From a bacterium (GTDB lineage Bacteria; Ratteibacteria; UBA8468; B48-G9; DSTR01): a stretch of 64,000 nt of DNA. Both the position numbers and the translations under genes were made by a program. The stretch is from contig JAKPFT010000052.1 of the NCBI GenBank assembly GCA_029551285.1, positions 1 to 64,000 of the forward strand, written 5' to 3'. This document shows positions 7,168-24,003 of this stretch, piece after piece. Positions within the stretch are counted from its first letter, which is position 1. Each line of letters opens with the position of its first letter. The notes beneath the pieces are model-generated. The model saw nothing but the letters and a program-made list of their open reading frames with translations, was not told the DNA's origin and searched no databases.

Positions 7168-8374
7168 GTTTCCCTCCTCTGAGCCGAACCTGGAGACTGG
7201 CCGCGTGCTCGGTCAATCCCTCCAGTAGAGCCAGTTGCCTCACCGTTTTTCCCCACTTTTTGAGAAAACCCTTTTTCGCCCGGATAATGGCGTAGCTTCG
7301 CAAAAAGGTATAAACAGAAATACCGGAAGTGTATCTCACGGCCTGCTGGGTGGGCAGAACATGGCTGGGCCCGGCAAAGTAATCACTTAAAGCGGTGGGA
7401 GTGTAACTGCCTACCAGAATCACACCGGCCAGTGACTGCCGCAGTAGTTCTTCAGATTCCCGGCAGATAACCTGCAGGTGTTCCGGCGCCAGTTCATTGA
7501 TAATCCTGAGGGCTTGCTTCCTGTCCGGAACCAGCAACCAGTAACCAGACTTAAGCCTGCTGGCGACCTGCTGGCCCAGCCTTGCGGAAGTGGTGATGAA
7601 AATGCCGGTGCCACCTGTATGCTCCATTTGAGACGCCAGGTCAGCCGCAATGAGTTCAGGCTGGCCGGAATCATCAGCAAACACCACCAGTTCACTGGGA
7701 CCGGCCAGAGTGTCAAGACCAATCTGACCAAAAAGAAGTCTCTTGGCGGTGTTGACATAGGCCGAACCAGGACCAGCCACCTTATCCACACGGGGCACCG
7801 TTTCCGTACCAAAGGCCATCGCCGCAATTGCCTGGGCTCCGCCCATCCGGAAAATCTTTTTAACCCCGAGCCAGTCCAGGGTGGCTAACAGGTAGGGATT
7901 CACCTGTCCGTCAGGCCCGGGCGGGGTAGCCGCCACTATTTCCCGGCAGCCGGCTACTTTAGCCGGGATCGCCGTCATCAGCACAGAAGAGACCAGTGGA
8001 GCCTGAGAGGCAGGGATGTAAAGACCCACAGAACGAATCGGGTCCCAGCAAAATCTGATCTCACAACCAGTTTCTTTCTGCACAAATCCCGCCGGCAACT
8101 GAGCCTGGTGGTACCGTTCAATCCGGCGACGGGCCTGCTGGAGAGCCTGTTTAATCGGCCCGGTAAGGTACCTTCGGCTGGACCTGACCATCTCTTCCGG
8201 AACGACCGGACTGCTGATACTGGCCCGATCAAAGCGCCTGGTAAATTCCAGCAGAGCCCGGTCTCCCTGTTTTCTGACAGCCTCAATAATGGTCATGACG
8301 CGGGCCTCTATCTCTGGATTTTCCCGCGTCTTTTTCAGAATCTGCCACAGTCTGCCGCAGTCTATTTGTTGCAT
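7151..8374 (-). CDS. hisD: histidinol dehydrogenase
   Basis: Zn-dependent, NAD-linked four-electron oxidation of L-histidinol to L-histidine, the last two steps of histidine synthesis. The protein has 407 residues, near the family norm. Conserved blocks are KVAGPGSAYV, AGPSELVVFAD, DLASQMEHTGGT (metal-ligand Gln/His region), NELAPEHLQV (catalytic Glu-His) and FAGPSHVLPT. The ATG overlaps the end of rpe by 13 bases and the gene's own end overlaps hisB, so the three are coupled. A short lower-complexity C-terminal tail ends in basic residues. Confidence 0.97.
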   Translation of the reverse strand: MQQIDCGRLWQILKKTRENPEIEARVMTIIEAVRKQGDRALLEFTRRFDRASISSPVVPEEMVRSSRRYLTGPIKQALQQARRRIERYHQAQLPAGFVQKETGCEIRFCWDPIRSVGLYIPASQAPLVSSVLMTAIPAKVAGCREIVAATPPGPDGQVNPYLLATLDWLGVKKIFRMGGAQAIAAMAFGTETVPRVDKVAGPGSAYVNTAKRLLFGQIGLDTLAGPSELVVFADDSGQPELIAADLASQMEHTGGTGIFITTSARLGQQVASRLKSGYWLLVPDRKQALRIINELAPEHLQVICRESEELLRQSLAGVILVGSYTPTALSDYFAGPSHVLPTQQAVRYTSGISVYTFLRSYAIIRAKKGFLKKWGKTVRQLALLEGLTEHAASLQVRLRGGKHGPKG

Positions 8375-9018
8375 CTTAACTCCCTGATGGCCATGGCATA
8401 ATCAGCGCTCCCGAAGATGAACGAACCAGCCACCAGGATATCAGCGCCAGCGTTGATAACCAGGGGAGCAGTTTCTCTGTTGATACCCCCATCAACCTCA
8501 ATCTGGAACTTCCAGCGGTTCTTTTCCCGGAGTTCCGCCAGGGCTTCAATCTTGGGCAGGACCTCAGGCATGAAGGACTGACCGCCAAAGCCAGGATTAA
8601 CGCTCATCACCAGTATTTCCTCCACCATCTCCAGGTAAGGTCTGGCCGGCTCTACTCCGGTATCAGGGTTCATCACCAGGCAGACCTGCTGGCCACCAGA
8701 AGTAATCTCTTTAATTAACTTTCTATGGTCCAGCTGGCATTCAAGATGAATCCCGATAATTTCCGCTCCGGCCCGGGCAAAAGCCTGCCAGAAAAGGTCA
8801 GGCCTCATAATCATCAGGTGAGCCTGAAAGGGCACCCGCGTGTACGAACGGATGGCTTTCAAAACCATCGGGCCAAAGGTGATGTTGGGAACAAAATGGC
8901 CATCCATGACATCAAAGTGGATTAAGTCAGCCCCGGCTGCAGTCACCGCGGCAACTTCCTCACCCAGCCGGCTGAAATTGGCTGAAAGCAGAGAAGGAGC
9001 AATTTTTACCGGTGTCAT
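8362..9018 (-). CDS. rpe: ribulose-phosphate 3-epimerase
   Basis: Interconverts D-ribulose 5-phosphate and D-xylulose 5-phosphate in the pentose phosphate pathway. A 218-residue TIM barrel with the diagnostic motifs: IAPSLLSANFS at the N-terminus, IHFDVMDGHFVPNITFGP (metal ligands His/Asp), SVNPGFGGQSF, and EVDGGINRETAP followed by the phosphate-binding GADILVAGS. It is the first gene of a four-gene minus-strand operon with hisD, hisB and xerC/D. That pairing makes sense because histidine synthesis draws on ribose 5-phosphate. A good sigma70 promoter lies about 70 bases upstream. Confidence 0.97.
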   Translation of the reverse strand: MTPVKIAPSLLSANFSRLGEEVAAVTAAGADLIHFDVMDGHFVPNITFGPMVLKAIRSYTRVPFQAHLMIMRPDLFWQAFARAGAEIIGIHLECQLDHRKLIKEITSGGQQVCLVMNPDTGVEPARPYLEMVEEILVMSVNPGFGGQSFMPEVLPKIEALAELREKNRWKFQIEVDGGINRETAPLVINAGADILVAGSFIFGSADYAMAIRELRCNK

Positions 9019-9058
9019 CTTTCCGGCCTTTCCGATTTTTAAAACAAACCGCAGAAAG

Positions 9059-9116
9059 CAATGGTGTTAAATGGTGTTGTAAGGCTGATTATACCACAGC
9101 CCACCAGCACTGTTAA
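9059..9116 (-). promoter_or_regulatory. promoter of the rpe-hisDB-xer operon, with a leader direct repeat
   Basis: Reverse-strand TTAACA (9111-9116), 17 bases, TATAAT (9088-9093), giving a start near 9081 and a 60-base leader. The leader contains two copies of AATGGTGTT (plus-strand reading, 9059-9078) just downstream of the start, a possible operator half-site pair. Confidence 0.7.
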
Positions 9117-9188
9117 CTGCCTGGCCTTCATTTCTTTTGCGGTCCGCTGACGGCCGCTGCGGCAATTATTCCCGGTGCCAGCCCTGGC

Positions 9189-9217
9189 TTGACGGAAAAC
9201 TCCGGCGGTAATATAAT
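9189..9217 (+). promoter_or_regulatory. promoter of serA
   Basis: TTGACG (9189-9194), exactly 17 bases, TATAAT (9212-9217), close to the sigma70 consensus. Predicted start near 9224, only a few bases before the first possible ATG (9229). Confidence 0.8.
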
Positions 9218-9240
9218 TTCAGTAAAGGATGGGAAAGAAC

Positions 9241-10821
9241 ATGGAAAAAGTGAAAATACTGGCCACTGACGGATTTGAGCAGGAAGGGGTTGAGATTCTG
9301 AAAAAAGCCGGTTTTCAGGTAACAGAAAGCGCTACGTTACCACCGGAGAAACTCTCTGAAGTTATCCCGGAATATGACGTGCTGATTGTCCGCAGCGCCA
9401 CCAAAGTACCGGCTGAGGTTATCCAGCGGGGCAGCCGGCTGAAAATCATTGGCCGGGCCGGGGTCGGCCTGGATAACATTGACATTAACGCGGCCACGGC
9501 CTGCGGCGTCATCGTCATGAACGCGCCGGAAGGAAACACCATTTCTGCTGCGGAGCACACCATCGGGTTGCTCCTGGCCATGGCTCGAAAAATTCCCCAG
9601 GCCAATGCCTCGGTCAAAGCCGGATTGTGGGAGAAAAAGAAATTTATGGGCACAGAACTCTATGGAAAAACCCTTGGCGTGATTGGCCTGGGCCGGATTG
9701 GCCGACGGGTGGCTTTCATTGCCAGAGGTTTAGGTATGAAGGTGTTAGCCCACGATCCGTTTGTCGGCCAGGAAACAGTCAAGGAGACAGAAATAAGCCT
9801 GGTGAGTCTGGAAGGCTTACTGAAGCAGGCAGATTTTGTGACGCTGCATCTGCCGCTGACCGATAAGACCCGGGGGCTTATTAACGAACAAACCCTTGCC
9901 CTGATGAAAGAAGGCGCTGGCATTATCAACGTAGCCCGGGGCGGCATCATTGATGAAGCCGCTCTCTACCAGGCCCTCTGCCAGGGGAAACTTGGGGCCG
10001 CAGCCCTGGATGTGTTTGAAAAGGAGCCCTTACCTCAGGATAGTCCCCTGCGGAGCCTGGACAACGTGATTTTGACGCCACACCTGGGTGCTTCTACCCA
10101 TGAGGCCCAGGTCAATGTGGCCCGGGACCTGGCAACCCAGATTGTGGACGCCTTCACCCGCAAAGTTATCCGTAATGCCGTTAACCTACCGGCAGCCGAG
10201 GGTGAAGTTCTGGAAAAACTTCGGGGGTATCTTTCAGTAGGCGAACACCTTGGCTGTTTGGTCAGGCAACTGGCTGAAGGGGATTTTAAATCGGTATACC
10301 TTGAGTACAGCGGGGAAATCACCAACTATGATGTTTCCCTGCTGCGGCTGAGTATCCTGAAGGGGTTGCTTTCCGACCAGCCCAAGGTTAATGTGGTCAA
10401 TGCTTCCCTGGTGGCGAAAGAGCGCGGTTGGACTGTGAGTGAACGGCGACTGCCCAGTGCTGGCGAGTTTCTTAATCTGATAACCGTGGAGGTGAAAGGA
10501 AAACGCAAAGTTCAGGCAGCTGGCACCCTCCTCCAGAACCGGGAAGAACGCATTGTTCAGATTGATTCTTACCCGGTGGAAGCCATTCCGGAGGGAGTGC
10601 TGCTGGTCTGCTACAATGACGACCGACCGGGCATCATGGGGCATATTGGCACGGTTTTAGGGAGAAAAGGGGTCAATATCGCGGCCATGACACTTGGTCG
10701 CAAGAAAAAGGGCGGTACTGCCATTACCGTATTAAACTTAGATGAGCAGATCGACGAAGATGTTTTGAAAGAAATTGAGGCGTTTCCGGCTATTCATTCG
10801 GTCAAACTGGTACAACTGTAA
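9241..10821 (+). CDS. serA: D-3-phosphoglycerate dehydrogenase (long form with ASB and ACT domains)
   Basis: First committed step of serine synthesis: 3-phosphoglycerate to 3-phosphohydroxypyruvate with NAD. About 526 residues, the long type found in Bacillus and Mycobacterium. Domains in order: substrate-binding domain with GRAGVGLDNID, Rossmann domain (LGVIGLGRIGRRVA), catalytic Arg/Glu/His in NVARGGIIDE, DVFEKEPL and TPHLGAST, then an allosteric substrate-binding region and a C-terminal ACT domain beginning LLVCYNDDRPGIMGHIG. The ACT domain implies serine feedback control. Start: ATG 9241 has AAAGGA eleven bases upstream. The alternative ATG 9229 would be nearly leaderless and adds four residues. 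Confidence 0.95.
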   Translation: MEKVKILATDGFEQEGVEILKKAGFQVTESATLPPEKLSEVIPEYDVLIVRSATKVPAEVIQRGSRLKIIGRAGVGLDNIDINAATACGVIVMNAPEGNTISAAEHTIGLLLAMARKIPQANASVKAGLWEKKKFMGTELYGKTLGVIGLGRIGRRVAFIARGLGMKVLAHDPFVGQETVKETEISLVSLEGLLKQADFVTLHLPLTDKTRGLINEQTLALMKEGAGIINVARGGIIDEAALYQALCQGKLGAAALDVFEKEPLPQDSPLRSLDNVILTPHLGASTHEAQVNVARDLATQIVDAFTRKVIRNAVNLPAAEGEVLEKLRGYLSVGEHLGCLVRQLAEGDFKSVYLEYSGEITNYDVSLLRLSILKGLLSDQPKVNVVNASLVAKERGWTVSERRLPSAGEFLNLITVEVKGKRKVQAAGTLLQNREERIVQIDSYPVEAIPEGVLLVCYNDDRPGIMGHIGTVLGRKGVNIAAMTLGRKKKGGTAITVLNLDEQIDEDVLKEIEAFPAIHSVKLVQL

Positions 10822-10935
10822 CATGAGAACCCTGTTTTCACATTCACTCTGGGGCGGTCGAAGCAAGGCTGTTAAACCGGGCCGTCCCATCATGTTCCTC
10901 TCAGGCTGACCCGCCGGAAACACCTCCTGGTTACA
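10817..10935 (+). ncRNA. structured RNA candidate between serA and rny (6S-like by position)
   Basis: This spacer folds on paper into a long rod. TGTAAC (10817-10822) pairs with GTTACA (10930-10935), TGTTTTC with GGAAACA, and GGCGGTC with GACCCGCC (one bulge). An alternative inner hairpin pairs GGGGCGG with CCGTCCC. In several bacterial groups 6S RNA lies beside zapA/ygfA/rny, which is why that identity is considered. No zapA is present here, I see no clear own promoter or terminator, and the conserved 6S bubble was not verified. It may instead be an untranslated leader of rny. Confidence 0.3.
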
Positions 10936-10988
10936 ACTTGAGCCCTCTGCCAGACACTGGCAGCAGGAGCACCGAGGGGGTGAAGAAA

Positions 10989-12560
10989 ATGGGTGAGAAG
11001 TTCTTCCTCTTACTTCCCTGGATTATTATTCTGTGGAGCGCTGTTTCTCTGCTAATCGGATACTGGTGGCGCAAATATGTGGGTGAACGCACCATGGCCG
11101 CCGCCGAAAAACGCGCCCGGGAGATTATCCAGGAAGCGGAAAATCTGGCCCAGAGTAAGAAGCGCGAGATTGACCTGGAAGCCAAAGAAATAGTCTTCCG
11201 TCTCCGGGCTGATTTCGAAAGGGAAACCCGAAACAAACGCCGGGAGATGCAGTTTCAGGAGAAGCGGCTGCAGCAGAGAGAGTTTAACTTAGAACGCCGG
11301 GCCGAACTGCTGGAGAAAAAAGAAGCCGAGCTGACCGAGCGAGAAAAAAATCTGCAGAGCAAGGAACAGGCTGCTCAGGAAAGAGAAAAGGCTTATATAG
11401 CTCTGCTGGAAGAAGAGAAAAAACGTCTGGAAAAAATTTCCAGCATGAGTCGGGAGGAAGCCAAGCAGGAGTTATTGAAGACCATGGAGGAGGAAGCCCG
11501 GAAAGAAGCGGTAAAACTACAGCGCAAGATTGAAGAAGAAGCACGTTCCAATGCGGAGAAAACCGCCCGGGAGATTATGCTGGCGGCCATGCAACGGCTG
11601 GCTTCAGAAGAAGCCTCAGAAAGCACTGTTTCGGTGGTAAGTTTACCCAACGATGAAGTGAAGGGACGAATTATCGGCCGGGAAGGACGCAATATCAGAG
11701 CCTTTGAGGCCGCTACCGGCGTGGACTTAATTGTGGACGATACACCTGAAGCTGTGACCATCTCCTCTTTTAACCTCTTCCGGCGGGAGATTGCCAGATT
11801 TTCTCTGGAAAGACTGGTGGTGGATGGCCGGATTCATCCGGGCAGAATTGAAGAGGTGGTGGAACGGGTCAAGAAAGAACTGGAAGAAAAAACCTTGCAG
11901 GAAGGTACCAACACCATCTTTGAGGTGGGACTGGAAAATGTTCATCCGGAGCTGGTGAAACTGCTCGGTCGTCTCAAATATCGGACCAGTTTCGGCCAGA
12001 ATGTCCTTCAACATTCTAAAGAAGCGGCCTTCCTGGCAGCCATGATTGCGGCTGACTTAGGTCTGGATTCTAAACTGGCCCGGCGGGCGGCGCTTTTTCA
12101 TGATATCGGCAAAGCCGTGGACCAGGAAGTGGAAGGAACTCATCCGGAAATCGGGGCGGAAATCCTGCAAAAATTCGGTGAGAACGAAATCGTGGTCCAG
12201 GCGGCGCTGGCTCACCACCGGGACACCTCGGTCGCCTCTCCCTATACCGTGCTTACGGCAGTGGCTGATGCCATTTCCGCCACCCGGCCCGGGGCCAGAA
12301 GAGATACCTTAGAAAAGTATCTGCGCCGGATTGAAGATTTAGAAAAAATCGCTTCTTCTTTCAAAGGGGTTGATACCGCCTACGCTATTTCGGCCGGCCG
12401 GGAGGTGCGGGTGATTGTTAAACCAGGAGAAACAACCGATGAGGACGCCCACATTCTGGCCAGGGAGATCGCCAAGAAGATAGAAGAAAATCTTCAGTAT
12501 ATCGGCCAGGTGCGGGTGACGGTGATCCGGGAAAAACGAGAGACTGAGATTGCTAAGTAA
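10989..12560 (+). CDS. rny: ribonuclease Y
   Basis: Membrane-anchored endoribonuclease that initiates mRNA decay. About 523 residues from the ATG preceded by GAGGGGGTGA; upstream in-frame codons have no ribosome site. Architecture is canonical: one N-terminal membrane helix (FFLLLPWIIILWSAVSLLIG), a long Glu/Lys/Arg coiled coil to about residue 200, a KH domain (VKGRIIGREGRNIRAFE), and an HD domain with ALFHDIGKA followed by the second metal-binding histidines (THPEIGAEI, LAHHRDT). It sits downstream of a possible structured RNA and upstream of tRNA-Asp, which has its own promoter. Confidence 0.97.
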   Translation: MGEKFFLLLPWIIILWSAVSLLIGYWWRKYVGERTMAAAEKRAREIIQEAENLAQSKKREIDLEAKEIVFRLRADFERETRNKRREMQFQEKRLQQREFNLERRAELLEKKEAELTEREKNLQSKEQAAQEREKAYIALLEEEKKRLEKISSMSREEAKQELLKTMEEEARKEAVKLQRKIEEEARSNAEKTAREIMLAAMQRLASEEASESTVSVVSLPNDEVKGRIIGREGRNIRAFEAATGVDLIVDDTPEAVTISSFNLFRREIARFSLERLVVDGRIHPGRIEEVVERVKKELEEKTLQEGTNTIFEVGLENVHPELVKLLGRLKYRTSFGQNVLQHSKEAAFLAAMIAADLGLDSKLARRAALFHDIGKAVDQEVEGTHPEIGAEILQKFGENEIVVQAALAHHRDTSVASPYTVLTAVADAISATRPGARRDTLEKYLRRIEDLEKIASSFKGVDTAYAISAGREVRVIVKPGETTDEDAHILAREIAKKIEENLQYIGQVRVTVIREKRETEIAK

Positions 12561-19510: not shown

Positions 19511-20305
19511 TTACTTTTCCAGCCAGGTTCCAGAAAAAGGAACAGAAGTTTTCCCTTCCAGGAAAACCTTCTGGAGATCCGGGGTGAAACTTACCCGCAG
19601 TTTCTCTCCGGAGGCAGCCGTCACTGTCACCGGAGAAACCACCCTGCCAAGGAGAAAGCAGACCAGGGCCGCCGCTACCGTGCCTGTCCCGCAGGAGAGA
19701 GTTTCTGCCTCCACCCCCCGTTCAAAGGTGCGAATTTTCAGGGTTTGCCGGCCAGTAATCTGAACCCAGTCAACATTGGTCCCGGCAGGAAGGAAGGCTG
19801 GATGGAAGCGAATCATCGGACCCAGGGCCGCGACGTCAACGCTGGCGACGTCAGCCACAACAACAACCGCGTGCGGAACTCCGGTGTTGATACTGTGGAC
19901 AGTCAAATCCTGTCCGCCTACAGTCAAAGCCTGGTGAAGAACCGGACGGCCCACCACAGCCATACTGATTTTGACCCGACTGTTAGTAATAAAGGCCTGG
20001 TGAAGACCGGCCCTGGTTTCAATAATAAAGTGGTTTTTTGCTGAAATTTTTTTTATTTTGATGAACCTTACCAGACAGCGCAGACCATTACCGCACATCT
20101 CGGCTTCAGAACCGTCAGGGTTAAAAATACGCATTCGGAAGTCGGCCGACCGGGATTGTTCCAGAAGAACAAGTCCGTCCGCGCCCACGCCAAACTTGCG
20201 CTGGCACACTGCTTTTGCCAGGCGACTGGCGTGACGAATTTTGCCGGTGCGGTTATCCACCACGACGAAATCATTTCCGGAACCTACAATTTTAATAAAT
20301 TCCAT
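19511..20305 (-). CDS. dapF: diaminopimelate epimerase
   Basis: Interconverts LL- and meso-diaminopimelate for lysine and peptidoglycan synthesis, without a cofactor. 264 residues from ATG 20305. Both catalytic cysteines are present: C71 in AEMCGNGLRC and the partner in ETLSCGTGT near residue 215. The N-terminal FIKIVGSGNDFVVVD is the family signature. Upstream the DNA carries three near-identical 10-base repeats that duplicate the EFIK-coding stretch, giving a longer open frame from a TTG at 20335. The family N-terminus supports 20305. It is the first gene of the dapF-comEC run and borders the AT-rich island. Confidence 0.94.
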   Translation of the reverse strand: MEFIKIVGSGNDFVVVDNRTGKIRHASRLAKAVCQRKFGVGADGLVLLEQSRSADFRMRIFNPDGSEAEMCGNGLRCLVRFIKIKKISAKNHFIIETRAGLHQAFITNSRVKISMAVVGRPVLHQALTVGGQDLTVHSINTGVPHAVVVVADVASVDVAALGPMIRFHPAFLPAGTNVDWVQITGRQTLKIRTFERGVEAETLSCGTGTVAAALVCFLLGRVVSPVTVTAASGEKLRVSFTPDLQKVFLEGKTSVPFSGTWLEK

Positions 20306-20328
20306 TTTAATAAATTCCAATAAATTCC
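20294..20328. repeat. triplicated AATAAATTCC at the dapF 5' end
   Basis: Three copies of AATAAATTCC at 20294-20303, 20309-20318 and 20319-20328. The first is inside dapF's opening codons. The array lies exactly at the change from GC-rich core to AT-rich island and may be a local slippage product or junction scar. Confidence 0.8.
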
Positions 20329-20340
20329 ATGGCAAGATTT

Positions 20341-20525
20341 TAGTTTAACACCGACAAAAATCACTGTCAAAAACTGTTGGCGCAAAATGATAATGTGGTC
20401 TTTGTGCAATGTGAAAATGTCCTGTTTTGCTACACTGAGGAGTGGCAAAGGAGTGTACTGCTCCCCTATAAGAAATAACTGAAAATGGTTGTGTAAGGAT
20501 AAAGAAAGAGGGCGAATTAATATTG
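20341..20525. other. gene-free AT-rich spacer with internal repeats, possible IS end
   Basis: No gene seen. The stretch contains similar blocks GGCGCAAAATGATAATGT (about 20374-20391) and GCAATGTGAAAATGTCC (about 20406-20422). Repeated motifs of this kind occur at the ends of IS21-type elements, but no transposase is present and the resemblance is by eye only. Confidence 0.25.
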
Positions 20526-21488
20526 TTATGATATTGAAAATGCATGTTGTAAAATTCCATTACTATCATATCCCATAGATTTATTCTTGAAGTATCTTAT
20601 TATGATTTTCTTATCATCTGCAGAAAAATTGCTGTTTGAAATATACCCATATATTTGTTCCCATGTGATTCGTTTGAATATTCTTGAATTATTTTCTACG
20701 ATATGCTTTTTAAAAATCTCTTCAATATTTTCTCCTCGCTTAGACAATGTGATATTGATTAAATAGAAATTACGATGTAATTGTTTGGCTATCCATGAAC
20801 CAATAAGCCAAAATCTTGATAATTCATATTTTTTATTTTCAGCTGCCACTGTCTTAAAATCACAACGAAATACTTTGTTCCACCGACCATTACCTCCAGA
20901 AACATATTTATCCTCAACATATAATTTATAAGGTATCGTTTCATTATTTGCACAGAACTTTGCTTCAATAAATATCAAATTTTTATCTCCTAAGATAATT
21001 ACATCTGGTTCAGAACCCTTTGAATGTACTAACTCAAACTCTTCACGCCCTCTATTTGACATATCCCATACACTCTCTTGAGATTGAGAATAAGACCAGT
21101 AAATGATTTCTATTTTATCTTCACAGATATGGATTAGATTTTGTAAAAATTCACAGAGTAGTTTATTCCTTTCCAAAAATCTAAACACATTCCAGGTTAA
21201 AGCATCTTCACTATTATCCCGTGCAATTCGGCTTTCTCTTTTTACCTTCTTTATCTTATTAAAGAAATCTAAATCGGTTTTATCCTTCCAGAGCAGGTTG
21301 CGTAATTCATTTTCATATTCAAAAGTGGACGGTGAAATGTAGATGTTGTGCTTCGGGCATTTGAATTTCTCCTCTCGCTTAAAAACTCCTTTCTGCCTTT
21401 CCACCTTTTTATCGCAATTTTTAACTGGACATTCAACTGTTGTCTCGGTTATTTGAATTCTTTCTTCCAATTCTTCTCTCCCGAACAT
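20526..21488 (-). CDS. orphan PD-(D/E)XK nuclease-like protein with N-terminal zinc ribbon
   Basis: A 320-residue protein predicted to be a DNA nuclease, perhaps a restriction or defence enzyme. ATG 21488 is preceded by AAGGA. N-terminal cysteines C20 and C25 with C44 and H47 look like a zinc ribbon. The nuclease core reads SEDALTWNVF (E94), EPDVIILGD (D162) and LIFIEAKF (E175-x-K177), a full E...PD...ExK set. The C-terminal third is helical and basic. Base composition is far more AT-rich than flanking genes, and it borders IS remnants, so it is probably acquired. No methyltransferase accompanies it. It recalls the PGN_0703-type restriction-endonuclease group, but that family match is inference. 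Confidence 0.7.
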   Translation of the reverse strand: MFGREELEERIQITETTVECPVKNCDKKVERQKGVFKREEKFKCPKHNIYISPSTFEYENELRNLLWKDKTDLDFFNKIKKVKRESRIARDNSEDALTWNVFRFLERNKLLCEFLQNLIHICEDKIEIIYWSYSQSQESVWDMSNRGREEFELVHSKGSEPDVIILGDKNLIFIEAKFCANNETIPYKLYVEDKYVSGGNGRWNKVFRCDFKTVAAENKKYELSRFWLIGSWIAKQLHRNFYLINITLSKRGENIEEIFKKHIVENNSRIFKRITWEQIYGYISNSNFSADDKKIIIRYFKNKSMGYDSNGILQHAFSIS

Positions 21489-21580
21489 TTCCAATTCCTT
21501 GTCTTTAAGTCAATTTTGGTTGCTTTGTTTACCTTAACATCACCTGCTTCTTTTCTTCAATCTTTTAATTTTCTGGAACA

Positions 21581-22013
21581 GTAGTGTCCAAATAAAAATT
21601 AAAGATTTTGGTAAGCCGAACACTTTCGGATAAGATAAGTAGTTAGCAAAAGCCCTATTCAGGAAAGGGGGTTCGTCTAAGGGGGTTCGTCTTATGGTAT
21701 ATTATAACACAGTTTTTAATCAGATGCTAAATATGTTACCCCGACATCAATTTGAGACTTCTGTTTTTTTAGTATGAGGGAGACTACTGTACCAAGCACT
21801 TTACTTCCTGGAACCAACTTATAGTCGACCTCTATGCTCAAGCTTCTGGTAAAGATAGGCTTAGAGATATTGAAACCGGGCTGAGAGTCCAACAAAATAA
21901 CCGGTATCACCTTGGGTTAAAGAATGTTGCCCGCTCTACCATATCCTATTAGCAGGTTGGTTCTCCAAGTCTCCAAAACTAAATTGCCAGAGTTTTAATT
22001 GGACAGGAGTGAC
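21581..22013 (+). mobile_element. internally deleted IS4-type element A
   Basis: Left end GTAGTGTCCAAATAAAA (21581-21597) and right end, read inward on the reverse strand, TCACTCCTGTCCAATTAAAA (about 21994-22012), form an imperfect inverted repeat. Only the 5' third of a transposase lies between, so most of the element has been lost. The same ends recur in element B at 22.6-23.2 kb. Confidence 0.7.
21694..21952 (+). pseudogene. N-terminal fragment of an IS4-family (DUF4372-type) transposase, frameshifted
   Basis: Translation from ATG 21694 gives NTVFNQMLNMLPRHQFE, then a frameshift in a T run (21764-21770). The adjoining frame continues YEGDYCTKHFTSWNQ, LYAQASGKDRLRDIETGLR and NRYHLGLKNVARSTISY to a TAG at 21950. 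This order matches the N-terminal DUF4372 domain of IS4-family transposases, where the pattern is F-x-W-x-Q...R-x-S-L-R-D-I-E-x-x-L. The catalytic domain is absent. Two copies of GGGGGTTCGTCT lie just upstream of the start. Confidence 0.8.
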
Positions 22014-22376
22014 CTAAATAGGCAAATTTCTTAATCTTATTCTTTCTTTTTCAAAAATTAAAACGCAACCTTTTTCTATTTTGTCCTTTAAAAAAGGAAG
22101 ATTTTTAATTAAGATTTCTGCTTGAACATCTGGTTTATGGTATCCTTTTCTGAAGAGAATCAACGAAGGTTTATTTTTCTTCCATTTGAAAAGGAAATGA
22201 GAAAAATCAGTGTCTGCTGATATAATTGTTCTTTCTTCCTTTAAAGCAAATTTAAAAATTTCAGAATCACTTGCTTTCTGTAAATTTACTTCTCTTACAT
22301 GAATTACATCATATCCTTCTTTTCTTAATCTATCCGCAACCTTAAAAGATACAGCATTGTCAATTAAAAATTTCAT
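22014..22376 (-). CDS. DUF5615 PIN-like protein, probable toxin
   Basis: A 120-residue protein of the DUF5615 (Mut7-C-like) group in the PIN-domain superfamily, members of which are often ribonuclease toxins. The acidic metal-site residues are visible: D6 in FLIDNAVS, D37 in ASDSEI, and D55/D57 in IISADTDF. The motif GYDVIHVREV is typical. It overlaps its upstream partner, a DUF433 protein, by four bases (ATGA), the usual antitoxin-toxin arrangement. The gene ends exactly at the edge of IS remnant A and is AT-rich like the island. Toxicity is inferred from family and context only. Confidence 0.88.
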   Translation of the reverse strand: MKFLIDNAVSFKVADRLRKEGYDVIHVREVNLQKASDSEIFKFALKEERTIISADTDFSHFLFKWKKNKPSLILFRKGYHKPDVQAEILIKNLPFLKDKIEKGCVLIFEKERIRLRNLPI

Positions 22377-22597
22377 CTTAAAAGTGGCATTTCCTTTTCT
22401 CTCACCGTTTCGGCTGCAAACATTAATGCTTCTTTTATATCTTCTGATTCCAAATCAGGGTACGCATCAAGAATTTCCCTTTCACTCATACCTTCAGCAA
22501 GCATCTCTATAATGGTTGCAACAGGTATCCTTAAATTCCTTATACAGGGCTCACCATCCATTTGTTTATAATCAATCGTTATCCTTTTAAATTTCAT
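22373..22597 (-). CDS. DUF433 protein, probable antitoxin
   Basis: A 74-residue DUF433 protein, a small winged-helix-like family regularly paired with DUF5615 PIN-like proteins. Family features are the opening strand RITIDYKQMDGEPCIRNLRIPV, quoted by position 5-26, and the helix SEREILDAYPDLESEDIKEAL (residues 38-58). An ideal GAGGAGGGAG Shine-Dalgarno precedes the ATG. It is first in the two-gene operon and should both neutralise the toxin and bind the promoter, by analogy with other type II modules. Confidence 0.88.
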   Translation of the reverse strand: MKFKRITIDYKQMDGEPCIRNLRIPVATIIEMLAEGMSEREILDAYPDLESEDIKEALMFAAETVREKEMPLLR

Positions 22598-22620
22598 ACT
22601 CCCTCCTCATTATGTTTTTT

Positions 22621-22649
22621 ATTATATCACTGCACTACTGTCCAAATAA
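22621..22649 (-). promoter_or_regulatory. promoter of the DUF433/DUF5615 pair, overlapping an IS end
   Basis: Reverse-strand TATAAT (22621-22626) lies 17 bases after TTATTT (22644-22649). The -35 hexamer falls within the terminal repeat of IS remnant B, so the insertion may supply half of the promoter. Confidence 0.45.
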
Positions 22650-23237
22650 AAACTGACCTAAAATAGGGTCAATTGATAAGGTGGTTCTCACAGTTTCTGG
22701 AGTTTAACCAGACTTAAATTCAACAGGTCAATAATATCCAACCTCCGGAACAAAGATTCTCTGATTACCCGGGTGAAATAAAGCAGGGAGTTCTTGTATT
22801 TAGACTGATACTTGATGTAGGCCAGGAGCAGGTAATATATCATCGCCGTCCAAATCTGAGTGAGCACCGCATTTTTTGAAGTCCCCAGGAAGGTCTTTAT
22901 CTTCAAATTCTGTTTTATCCGCTTGTAAAACAGTTCAATCTCCCAGCGTGCTTTGTAAATCTAACTGATAGGATAGCCGGCCAGGTGGAAACGGTTGGTC
23001 AGAAACTGGTAGGTCTTGTTATGTTCTTTATGGTAGTAGGTTACCAGCCGTAATTTTTCAGGATATCCCTGTTGACTGTAAAACCCGGTGAGCGCCACTT
23101 CTTCATCTTTTACAACTTTAGCATCTGGTTGAATATTGGGCTAACATTTTCCATGCGGACTTTTACCAATGTCACCGCACCCTATGAGCGGGTCGGTTCT
23201 AAAATCTTCTCAAAACTTTAATTGGGCAGTAGTGGTC
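22632..23237 (-). mobile_element. internally deleted IS4-type element B
   Basis: Ends CACTACTGTCCAAATAAAA (about 22633-22651) and, reading inward from the right on the reverse strand, CCACTACTGCCCAATTAAAG (about 23217-23236) are inverted repeats like those of element A. The transposase inside is on the minus strand, so the two elements face each other across the DUF433/DUF5615 pair. Confidence 0.7.
22688..23154 (-). pseudogene. IS4-family transposase remnant, internal deletion plus stop codon
   Basis: From a start at 23154 the frame opens with NVSPIFNQMLKL, similar to element A's N-terminus, then breaks. The next readable part is VVKDEEVALTGFYSQQGYPEK, given by position near 23120-23060, continuing to LTNRFHLAGYPIS and a TAG stop. 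After it, IYKARWEIELFYKRIKQ carries the complete IS4 YREK signature (Y-2-R-3-E-6-K), and the C-terminus runs through NLKIKTFLGTSKNAV to the end at 22688. The middle of the protein with the first two catalytic aspartates is missing. It cannot encode an active transposase. Confidence 0.85.
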
Positions 23238-23529
23238 TTTACTGGAGAAAAAAAGACTTTTTGAAGATGGCCGGGCGATGGCTCTTCCGGTACCATACAG
23301 GAAGAGCACATTTTGGAGATAGGCCGGGGGAAAAGCGCCCTACGAAAAAACGGAAAAGCGGAGAGTCTGGATATAAACTCCTCTTTGAACTTCGTGCCGC
23401 CCCCTGATTCTAAATGACATTTCCACTCGCATTGTCCCCAATTTTTCTCAATATGGTGGTAACAATCTTCGTGACAACGACACCCTGCTCGGGATATACT
23501 TTTAACACGGTGTCAGCTCCGGAAACAAA
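23238..23529. other. gene-free stretch between IS remnant B and dtd, with probable dtd promoter
   Basis: No credible gene; a short frame at 23222-23407 has no ribosome site and starts inside the IS end. At its right side GTGACA (23471-23476), 18 bases and TATACT (23495-23500) form a likely dtd promoter. GACACC (23479-23484) and GGTGTC (23509-23514) form an inverted repeat flanking the -10 and could be an operator. Confidence 0.45.
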
Positions 23530-24003
23530 ATGAGGGTTCTCCTGCAAAGAGTGAAAAGGGCTTCCCTGAGAGCCGACCAGACCGTACTGGGCCAGATCGG
23601 CCCGGGAATGGTCCTTCTGGTCGGCATAGGACCCCAGGACAGCCAGGAGGACATAGAGGAACTGGCTGCCAAAATTCTTTCTCTGCGTATTTTCAGCGAT
23701 GCGGAGAAAAAGATGAATCTTTCGCTCGCTCAGGTTGGTGGTCAGCTAATGGTAGTGTCCCAATTTACCCTTTACGGCGACTGCACCCGCGGTTGCCGGC
23801 CAGATTTCACCCGGGCAGCCTCCGGTGTCTATGCCCGACCTCTCTACGAAAAGTTTGTTGCCAGATTGCGCCAGGAAGTTCCGGACCTGGTCGCAGGCGA
23901 GTTTGGCCAGGAACTGCTGGTGGAAATCCACAACGACGGGCCGGTCACATTTTATCTTCAGTCAAGGCGGGAACGGGGCAGTTTTCACCAGCATAGCCCT
24001 TGA
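23530..24003 (+). CDS. dtd: D-aminoacyl-tRNA deacylase
   Basis: Hydrolyses D-amino acids, and glycine mischarged on tRNA-Ala, from tRNA. This is a chirality proofreading step in the cytoplasm. 157 residues, slightly longer than the usual 145-150 because of a basic tail. The start MRVLLQRVKRASL, the SQFTLYGD active-site motif and the NDGPVTF cross-subunit Gly-cisPro motif are all intact. It is first in a compact run with two small unknown genes, a TPR protein and plsC. Confidence 0.96.
   Translation: MRVLLQRVKRASLRADQTVLGQIGPGMVLLVGIGPQDSQEDIEELAAKILSLRIFSDAEKKMNLSLAQVGGQLMVVSQFTLYGDCTRGCRPDFTRAASGVYARPLYEKFVARLRQEVPDLVAGEFGQELLVEIHNDGPVTFYLQSRRERGSFHQHSP

Follow-up and report, generated by a model that had tools for sequence, protein, structure and literature searches.

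A putative single-gene PD-(D/E)XK nuclease with a zinc-ribbon-like module, encoded on an acquired island between dapF and dtd

The window considered here, a stretch of 64,000 nucleotides of bacterial DNA, contains an open reading frame for which an earlier note, written from the sequence alone, had proposed an orphan PD-(D/E)XK nuclease with an N-terminal zinc ribbon. The locus raises the question of what such an enzyme would cut, and how it would spare its own host if no methylase accompanies it. The coordinates given in that note are correct. The gene lies on the minus strand, with the ATG at 21488 and the stop at 20526-20528, and the plus strand across 20526-21488 holds many stops. The start is backed by an AAGGA a few nucleotides upstream, and homologs of the encoded protein (referred to as P0001) begin with M-[FYL]-G, in agreement with the chosen start. 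All eight residues singled out beforehand, namely C20, C25, C44, H47, E94, D162, E175, and K177, occupy the positions assigned to them. The gene is thus real, intact, and functionally plausible. Relevant coordinates are provided in Table 1.

Table 1. Features of the locus, with positions in the window
Feature	Position	Strand	Remarks
Acquired island	20336..23529		3.2 kb, AT-rich; flanked by dapF (19511-20335) and dtd (23530-24003)
PD-(D/E)XK nuclease gene (P0001)	20526..21488	minus	intact ORF, 320 aa, stop included
Zinc-ribbon-like module, residues 17-58 (C20, C25, C44, H47)	21315..21440	minus	conservation and model
Predicted PD-(D/E)XK core, residues 93-250	20739..21212	minus	model, conservation, and Foldseek list
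C-terminal part, residues 255-316	20541..20726	minus	TWExIY ... NKTxGY ... AF motif, kept in close homologs

Structure prediction, which had been proposed as a check on the nuclease assignment, returned the core with high confidence (AlphaFold (AF2) model, pLDDT 96.0, pTM 0.93). The model displays a helix from residues 94 to 107 that carries E94, a strand from 126 to 130, D162 just ahead of a strand from 163 to 167, a strand from 170 to 176 that leads into E175-x-K177, a helix from 221 to 236, and a final strand from 240 to 247. This order, as assigned by DSSP, is that of the standard PD-(D/E)XK fold (helix-strand-strand-strand-helix-strand, alpha-beta-beta-beta-alpha-beta). A Foldseek search of the PDB gave mostly independent enzymes that we take, from general knowledge, to belong to the PD-(D/E)XK superfamily: R.BspD6I2, McrC, Nt.BspD6I, AF1548, Cdn1/Can2, Hjc, RecU, the R2 endonuclease, and arenavirus endonucleases. 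The matches are individually weak (best E-value 9e-3, best probability 0.92), with none under an E-value of 1e-3. The small subunit of R.BspD6I, McrC, AF1548, Hjc, and Cdn1/Can2 share the core fold with P0001 by Foldseek, whereas their identities are only ∼10-14%, their TM-scores are 0.1-0.4, and no sequence homology is detected. Sequence searches of the PDB gave nothing, or repeat-protein artefacts only.

The conservation of the active site is pronounced. In an alignment of 49 family members, D162, E175, and K177 are present in all 48 rows that cover them, and E94 in 49 of 49; homologs lacking E175 or K177, which would have spoken against the assignment, were thus not encountered. Most homologs were retrieved with a DNA pattern around the NSEDA motif that demanded SEDA, and the conservation of E94 and D95 is therefore partly selected. 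Four relatives found without the pattern retain the catalytic motifs as well, and E94 and D95 recur in relatives that were picked up by profile alone. W131, N182, and R225 are near-invariant in the core, and 32 columns are invariant among 25 family sequences. Judged by the alignment, the retention of the eight named residues is far beyond chance. The feature that marks the superfamily, an acidic residue followed by (D/E)-x-K on adjacent strands, is found in P0001 and is conserved in the family. E94, D162, and E175-x-K177 would hold a metal ion and hydrolyze DNA. The predicted fold and the conserved active site together support the placement of P0001 in the PD-(D/E)XK superfamily.

The N-terminal module is also well kept. 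C20 is present in 49 of 49 rows and C25 and C44 in 48 of 48, with one poorly called and poorly covered row as the exception, and the fourth ligand is a histidine in 42 rows and a cysteine in six (CCCH or CCCC). The knuckles of P0001, C-x4-C and C-x2-H, are surrounded in the model by short strands at residues 17-19, 28-30, 49-51, and 56-58, such that two Cys/His knuckles lie beside short β-strands as in a zinc ribbon. Sub-threshold matches to the Pfam families zf-RAG1 and IBR were set aside as Cys-pattern matches. The module presumably binds zinc, and the Cys3His ribbon probably docks the enzyme on nucleic acid. Zinc ribbons can, in addition, serve a purely structural purpose or bind nucleic acid in a general way. 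The description of the protein as a PD-(D/E)XK nuclease with an N-terminal zinc-ribbon-like module is supported by the predicted fold and by the conserved catalytic residues and Cys/His ligands.

P0001 matched no family at threshold in Pfam, NCBIfam, or PHROGs. Single-sequence searches of the genome contigs and of the phage and plasmid collections were all empty, as was a two-sequence scan of viral contigs, and the family became detectable only once an alignment had been built from relatives. An initial profile, built from a pair of homologs sharing 34% identity over 200 residues, reached homologs in unrelated phyla, and a five-member alignment then yielded 62 loci. Approximately 30 of these are close to P0001, with identities of 40-63% mostly over the full length; the hosts are archaea (Methanocellaceae, Methanosarcinales, Bathyarchaeota) as well as members of many bacterial phyla. 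In the tree, which spans 20 phylum-level labels, P0001 falls into a clade of four (SH-aLRT 99) that includes a protein from Methanocellaceae; many of the records are metagenome bins, and individual taxon labels may be wrong. Isolates, such as Fictibacillus nanhaiensis and Flavobacterium kayseriense, also occur among the hosts. The family is new and uncharacterized within a known superfamily, and is not a new kind of system.

Only 6-7 of the 386 sampled genomes carry the gene. A relative of the same class (G028) has a homolog, and none was found in a relative of the same genus (77% complete). A decayed copy with internal stops, 55% identical over 53 residues, is located in a genome of the same order (L002/L011; G015, C75:3411-3584), where it adjoins an electron-transfer-flavoprotein-like gene. 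The low prevalence, the decayed copy, and the absence in the same-genus relative form the pattern of a mobile, often lost gene. The insertion sites differ in every genome that carries a homolog, and a homing endonuclease was set aside on that ground. Horizontal mobility is supported by these observations.

The surroundings in the window agree. The flanking genes, which we take from reading their sequences to be dapF and dtd, are divergent neighbors in 14 relatives from the same phylum, with 38-170 bp between them, and among these 14 is the one further genome of the genus; in one such empty site (G001, contig C80), dtd spans 5-142 and dapF 261-1049. The block was thus inserted in the lineage of the window. 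Its GC content is 28-45%, against ∼55% on either side, and the GC3 of the nuclease gene is 0.28, against 0.54-0.64 for the flanking genes. Also within the island is a complete DUF433/DUF5615 (PIN-like) pair on the minus strand (22014-22597), antitoxin-toxin-like, with overlapping start and stop. A toxin-antitoxin role of the nuclease with this pair was set aside, given that the pair is complete in itself and, by reading, is absent beside the homologs. Decayed IS4-type transposase fragments (21570-22010 and 22636-23240) with similar ends (AGTAGTGTCCAAATAAAAA) flank the pair rather than the nuclease. These pieces carry the Y-x2-R-x3-E-x6-K signature, and contig C68 of the same genome holds a related fragment.

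An all-against-all comparison of the genes around the homologs revealed no recurrent partner. The largest shared cluster consists of DNA methylase-like genes at six loci, of differing sizes and mostly non-adjacent to the homolog. The absence of a constant partner makes the orphan, stand-alone character claimed for the window gene a property of the family. Most homologs lie among housekeeping-like genes, and a minority beside defense genes. Type IIG enzymes are found near the homologs of L042 and L046 by clustering and reading, a type ISP enzyme in L034, an SF1 helicase with a DUF559/MTES_1575 nuclease in L022, BrxL in L031 (by reading), and PDDEXK_4 proteins in L036 and L037 (by clustering). 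In L046, a gene for AIPR (abortive infection phage resistance) ends 5 nucleotides before the homolog. In a rough control, 47 genes of the window gave, among the 25 families listed, only generic helicase- and kinase-type PADLOC cross-matches. The neighbors favor defense, short of statistical proof.

Several other arrangements deserve mention. In L046, the AIPR gene and the homolog share a tight operon (8229-11942) with a third gene, whose product has a Cys-rich N-terminus of its own; the operon lies downstream of the type IIG-like enzyme and is a candidate multi-gene defense unit. A divergent CCCC-type homolog comes directly after a DNA methylase (L075/L009, genome G274, 7876-10624), and that methylase shows an apparent restriction-nuclease-like C-terminal extension. 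In two unrelated phyla, homologs adjoin recC/recB-like genes (L059, 530-8156; L043, 10001-18833), and in two phyla a DUF4238 gene comes after the homolog (L020, 6621-7406; L036, 5494-6588).

On the basis of the sequence comparisons and the model, the reading favored here, held with a little more belief than doubt, is that P0001 is a single-gene, horizontally mobile PD-(D/E)XK endonuclease whose role is most likely anti-invader. The nuclease would require no methylase or motor of its own and would most likely cut the DNA of invading phages or plasmids. The host would be spared because the target is fixed, either a modification or an invasion-specific form of DNA that is normally absent from the chromosome. 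The strong conservation across phyla argues against the diversifying specificity of type II enzymes and for one shared target. Counted against this reading are the location of most homologs among ordinary genes, the lack of matches in the phage and plasmid collections, a sequence conservation that is high, unlike that of rapidly evolving defense enzymes, and the individually weak Foldseek E-values (best 9e-3). A more specific version is offered only tentatively, as something possible but rather doubtful: that the family is an unrecognized single-protein defense system which moves between bacteria and archaea and whose ribbon-fused nuclease, needing no methylase, motor, or activator, recognizes an unchanging mark of the invader, be it a modified base or a DNA structure specific to invasion.

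That a modified base is recognized by the zinc ribbon, as the earlier note suggested, or by the C-terminal part, is a stricter form of the favored reading and is considered unlikely. Such a type IV/IIM-like enzyme would need no methylase, and no cognate methylase is encoded in the window or constant at the homologs; moreover, the N-terminal module is separate from the nuclease core in the model, and a target common to all members would agree with the strong conservation across phyla. The ribbon could, however, be purely structural or a general nucleic-acid binder, no known modification-reader domain was found, and the host's own N6/N4 methylases would be a risk for an m6A- or m4C-dependent enzyme. 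Known modification-dependent enzymes separate the reading and cutting domains (PMC3874153). The statement that there is no partner methylase holds locally: the contig of the window (C60) has no N6/N4 DNA methylase gene, and three such genes reside on contigs C97, C30, and C84. A search of the genome for an N6_Mtase family gene found none. These three enzymes, together with the methylase-like genes near six homologs, leave a very small chance that P0001 is a type II restriction enzyme that has lost its methylase or has it encoded at another site. The adjacent cognate methylase that would mark type II is absent at the window gene, however, and also at most loci, and those at the six loci are mixed in type, size, and position, for which reason a dedicated methylase partner was set aside; the protein also appears far more conserved across phyla than would be expected of a diversifying type II enzyme.

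A role in DNA repair or recombination, or in a mobile element, without any part in defense, is quite improbable. The 32 invariant columns, Hjc and RecU among the weak structural matches, the recB/recC-like genes beside two homologs, and the IS remnants in the island speak for it. Against it are the very patchy distribution, with the gene not found in the closest relative and decayed in the same-order genome, the variable insertion sites, which argue against a homing enzyme, and the IS remnants, which lie to either side of the DUF433/DUF5615 pair and not of the nuclease. Equally little credence as to type II is given to an effector of an ADP-ribosylation-countering system centered on ADP-ribosylglycohydrolase (ARG), sent to host or viral nucleic acid on triggering. 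A rapidly evolving REase of ARG-centered anti-ADP-ribosylation conflict systems has been described (PMC9503650), with which the Pfam family REase-ARP (PF22558) can, from its name, presumably be equated. REase-ARP is matched by 21 of the 49 family members (best 3.6e-14), and ADP-ribosylglycohydrolase genes adjoin the homologs of L037 and L056. The association is limited to these two loci, however; P0001 itself has no match to REase-ARP at E-values up to 10 (gathering cut-off 27 bits), and its island encodes no ADP-ribosylglycohydrolase, Nudix/WYL regulator, or phosphatase and shows no ARG/ARPP association.

If P0001 is an active defense nuclease, it would represent a one-gene, methylase-free restriction factor in archaea and many bacterial phyla that lies outside the Pfam, NCBIfam, and PHROGs models and any confident PADLOC model. 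Its high conservation suggests a single shared target, so that how a lone nuclease spares its host would become testable with one protein.

Among known systems, the type IV and IIM enzymes (McrBC, Mrr, MspJI, DpnI; PMC3874153) share the stand-alone logic without a methylase; several have PD-(D/E)XK domains, and McrC is among the Foldseek matches. P0001 differs in having no SRA, winged-helix, Mrr_N, or GTPase part and no sequence similarity to them, and a profile search of P0001, together with the families shown for the 49 relatives, gave no SRA, EVE, winged-helix, Mrr_N, or other known modification reader. With no reader domain found, the type IV label suggested for the protein is not earned.

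The phage-defense candidate PDC-M15A of PADLOC matches residues 94-178 of P0001 weakly (E-value 0.0054), and 18 of the 49 family members match one of the PDC-M15A models (best 4.3e-6). By its name PDC-M15A is part of a multi-gene candidate system, whereas the P0001 gene has no constant partner, and the match is far below a confident assignment. No literature was found under the names REase-ARP or PDC-M15, and REase-ARP was traced through PMC9503650.

The homology with REase-ARP lies in the nuclease core. Distant relatives in the same alignment as P0001 exceed the REase-ARP gathering cut-off, and a profile-profile alignment places the motifs of the two families in register (E-value 1.9e-4, probability 48). 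In the REase-ARP relatives retrieved here, both the zinc module and E94 are missing, whereas the P0001 family has them; the close P0001 family shows high conservation and mostly has no ARG genes alongside, whereas REase-ARP is described as rapidly evolving. Given the registered motifs, the lack of a match by P0001 itself, and the missing zinc module and E94, the P0001 family is, by sequence, a sister family to REase-ARP rather than a member. REase-ARP, and not a type IV family, is its nearest named family, and the REase-ARP effectors would in this way be linked to a larger family that is better conserved and has its active site complete.
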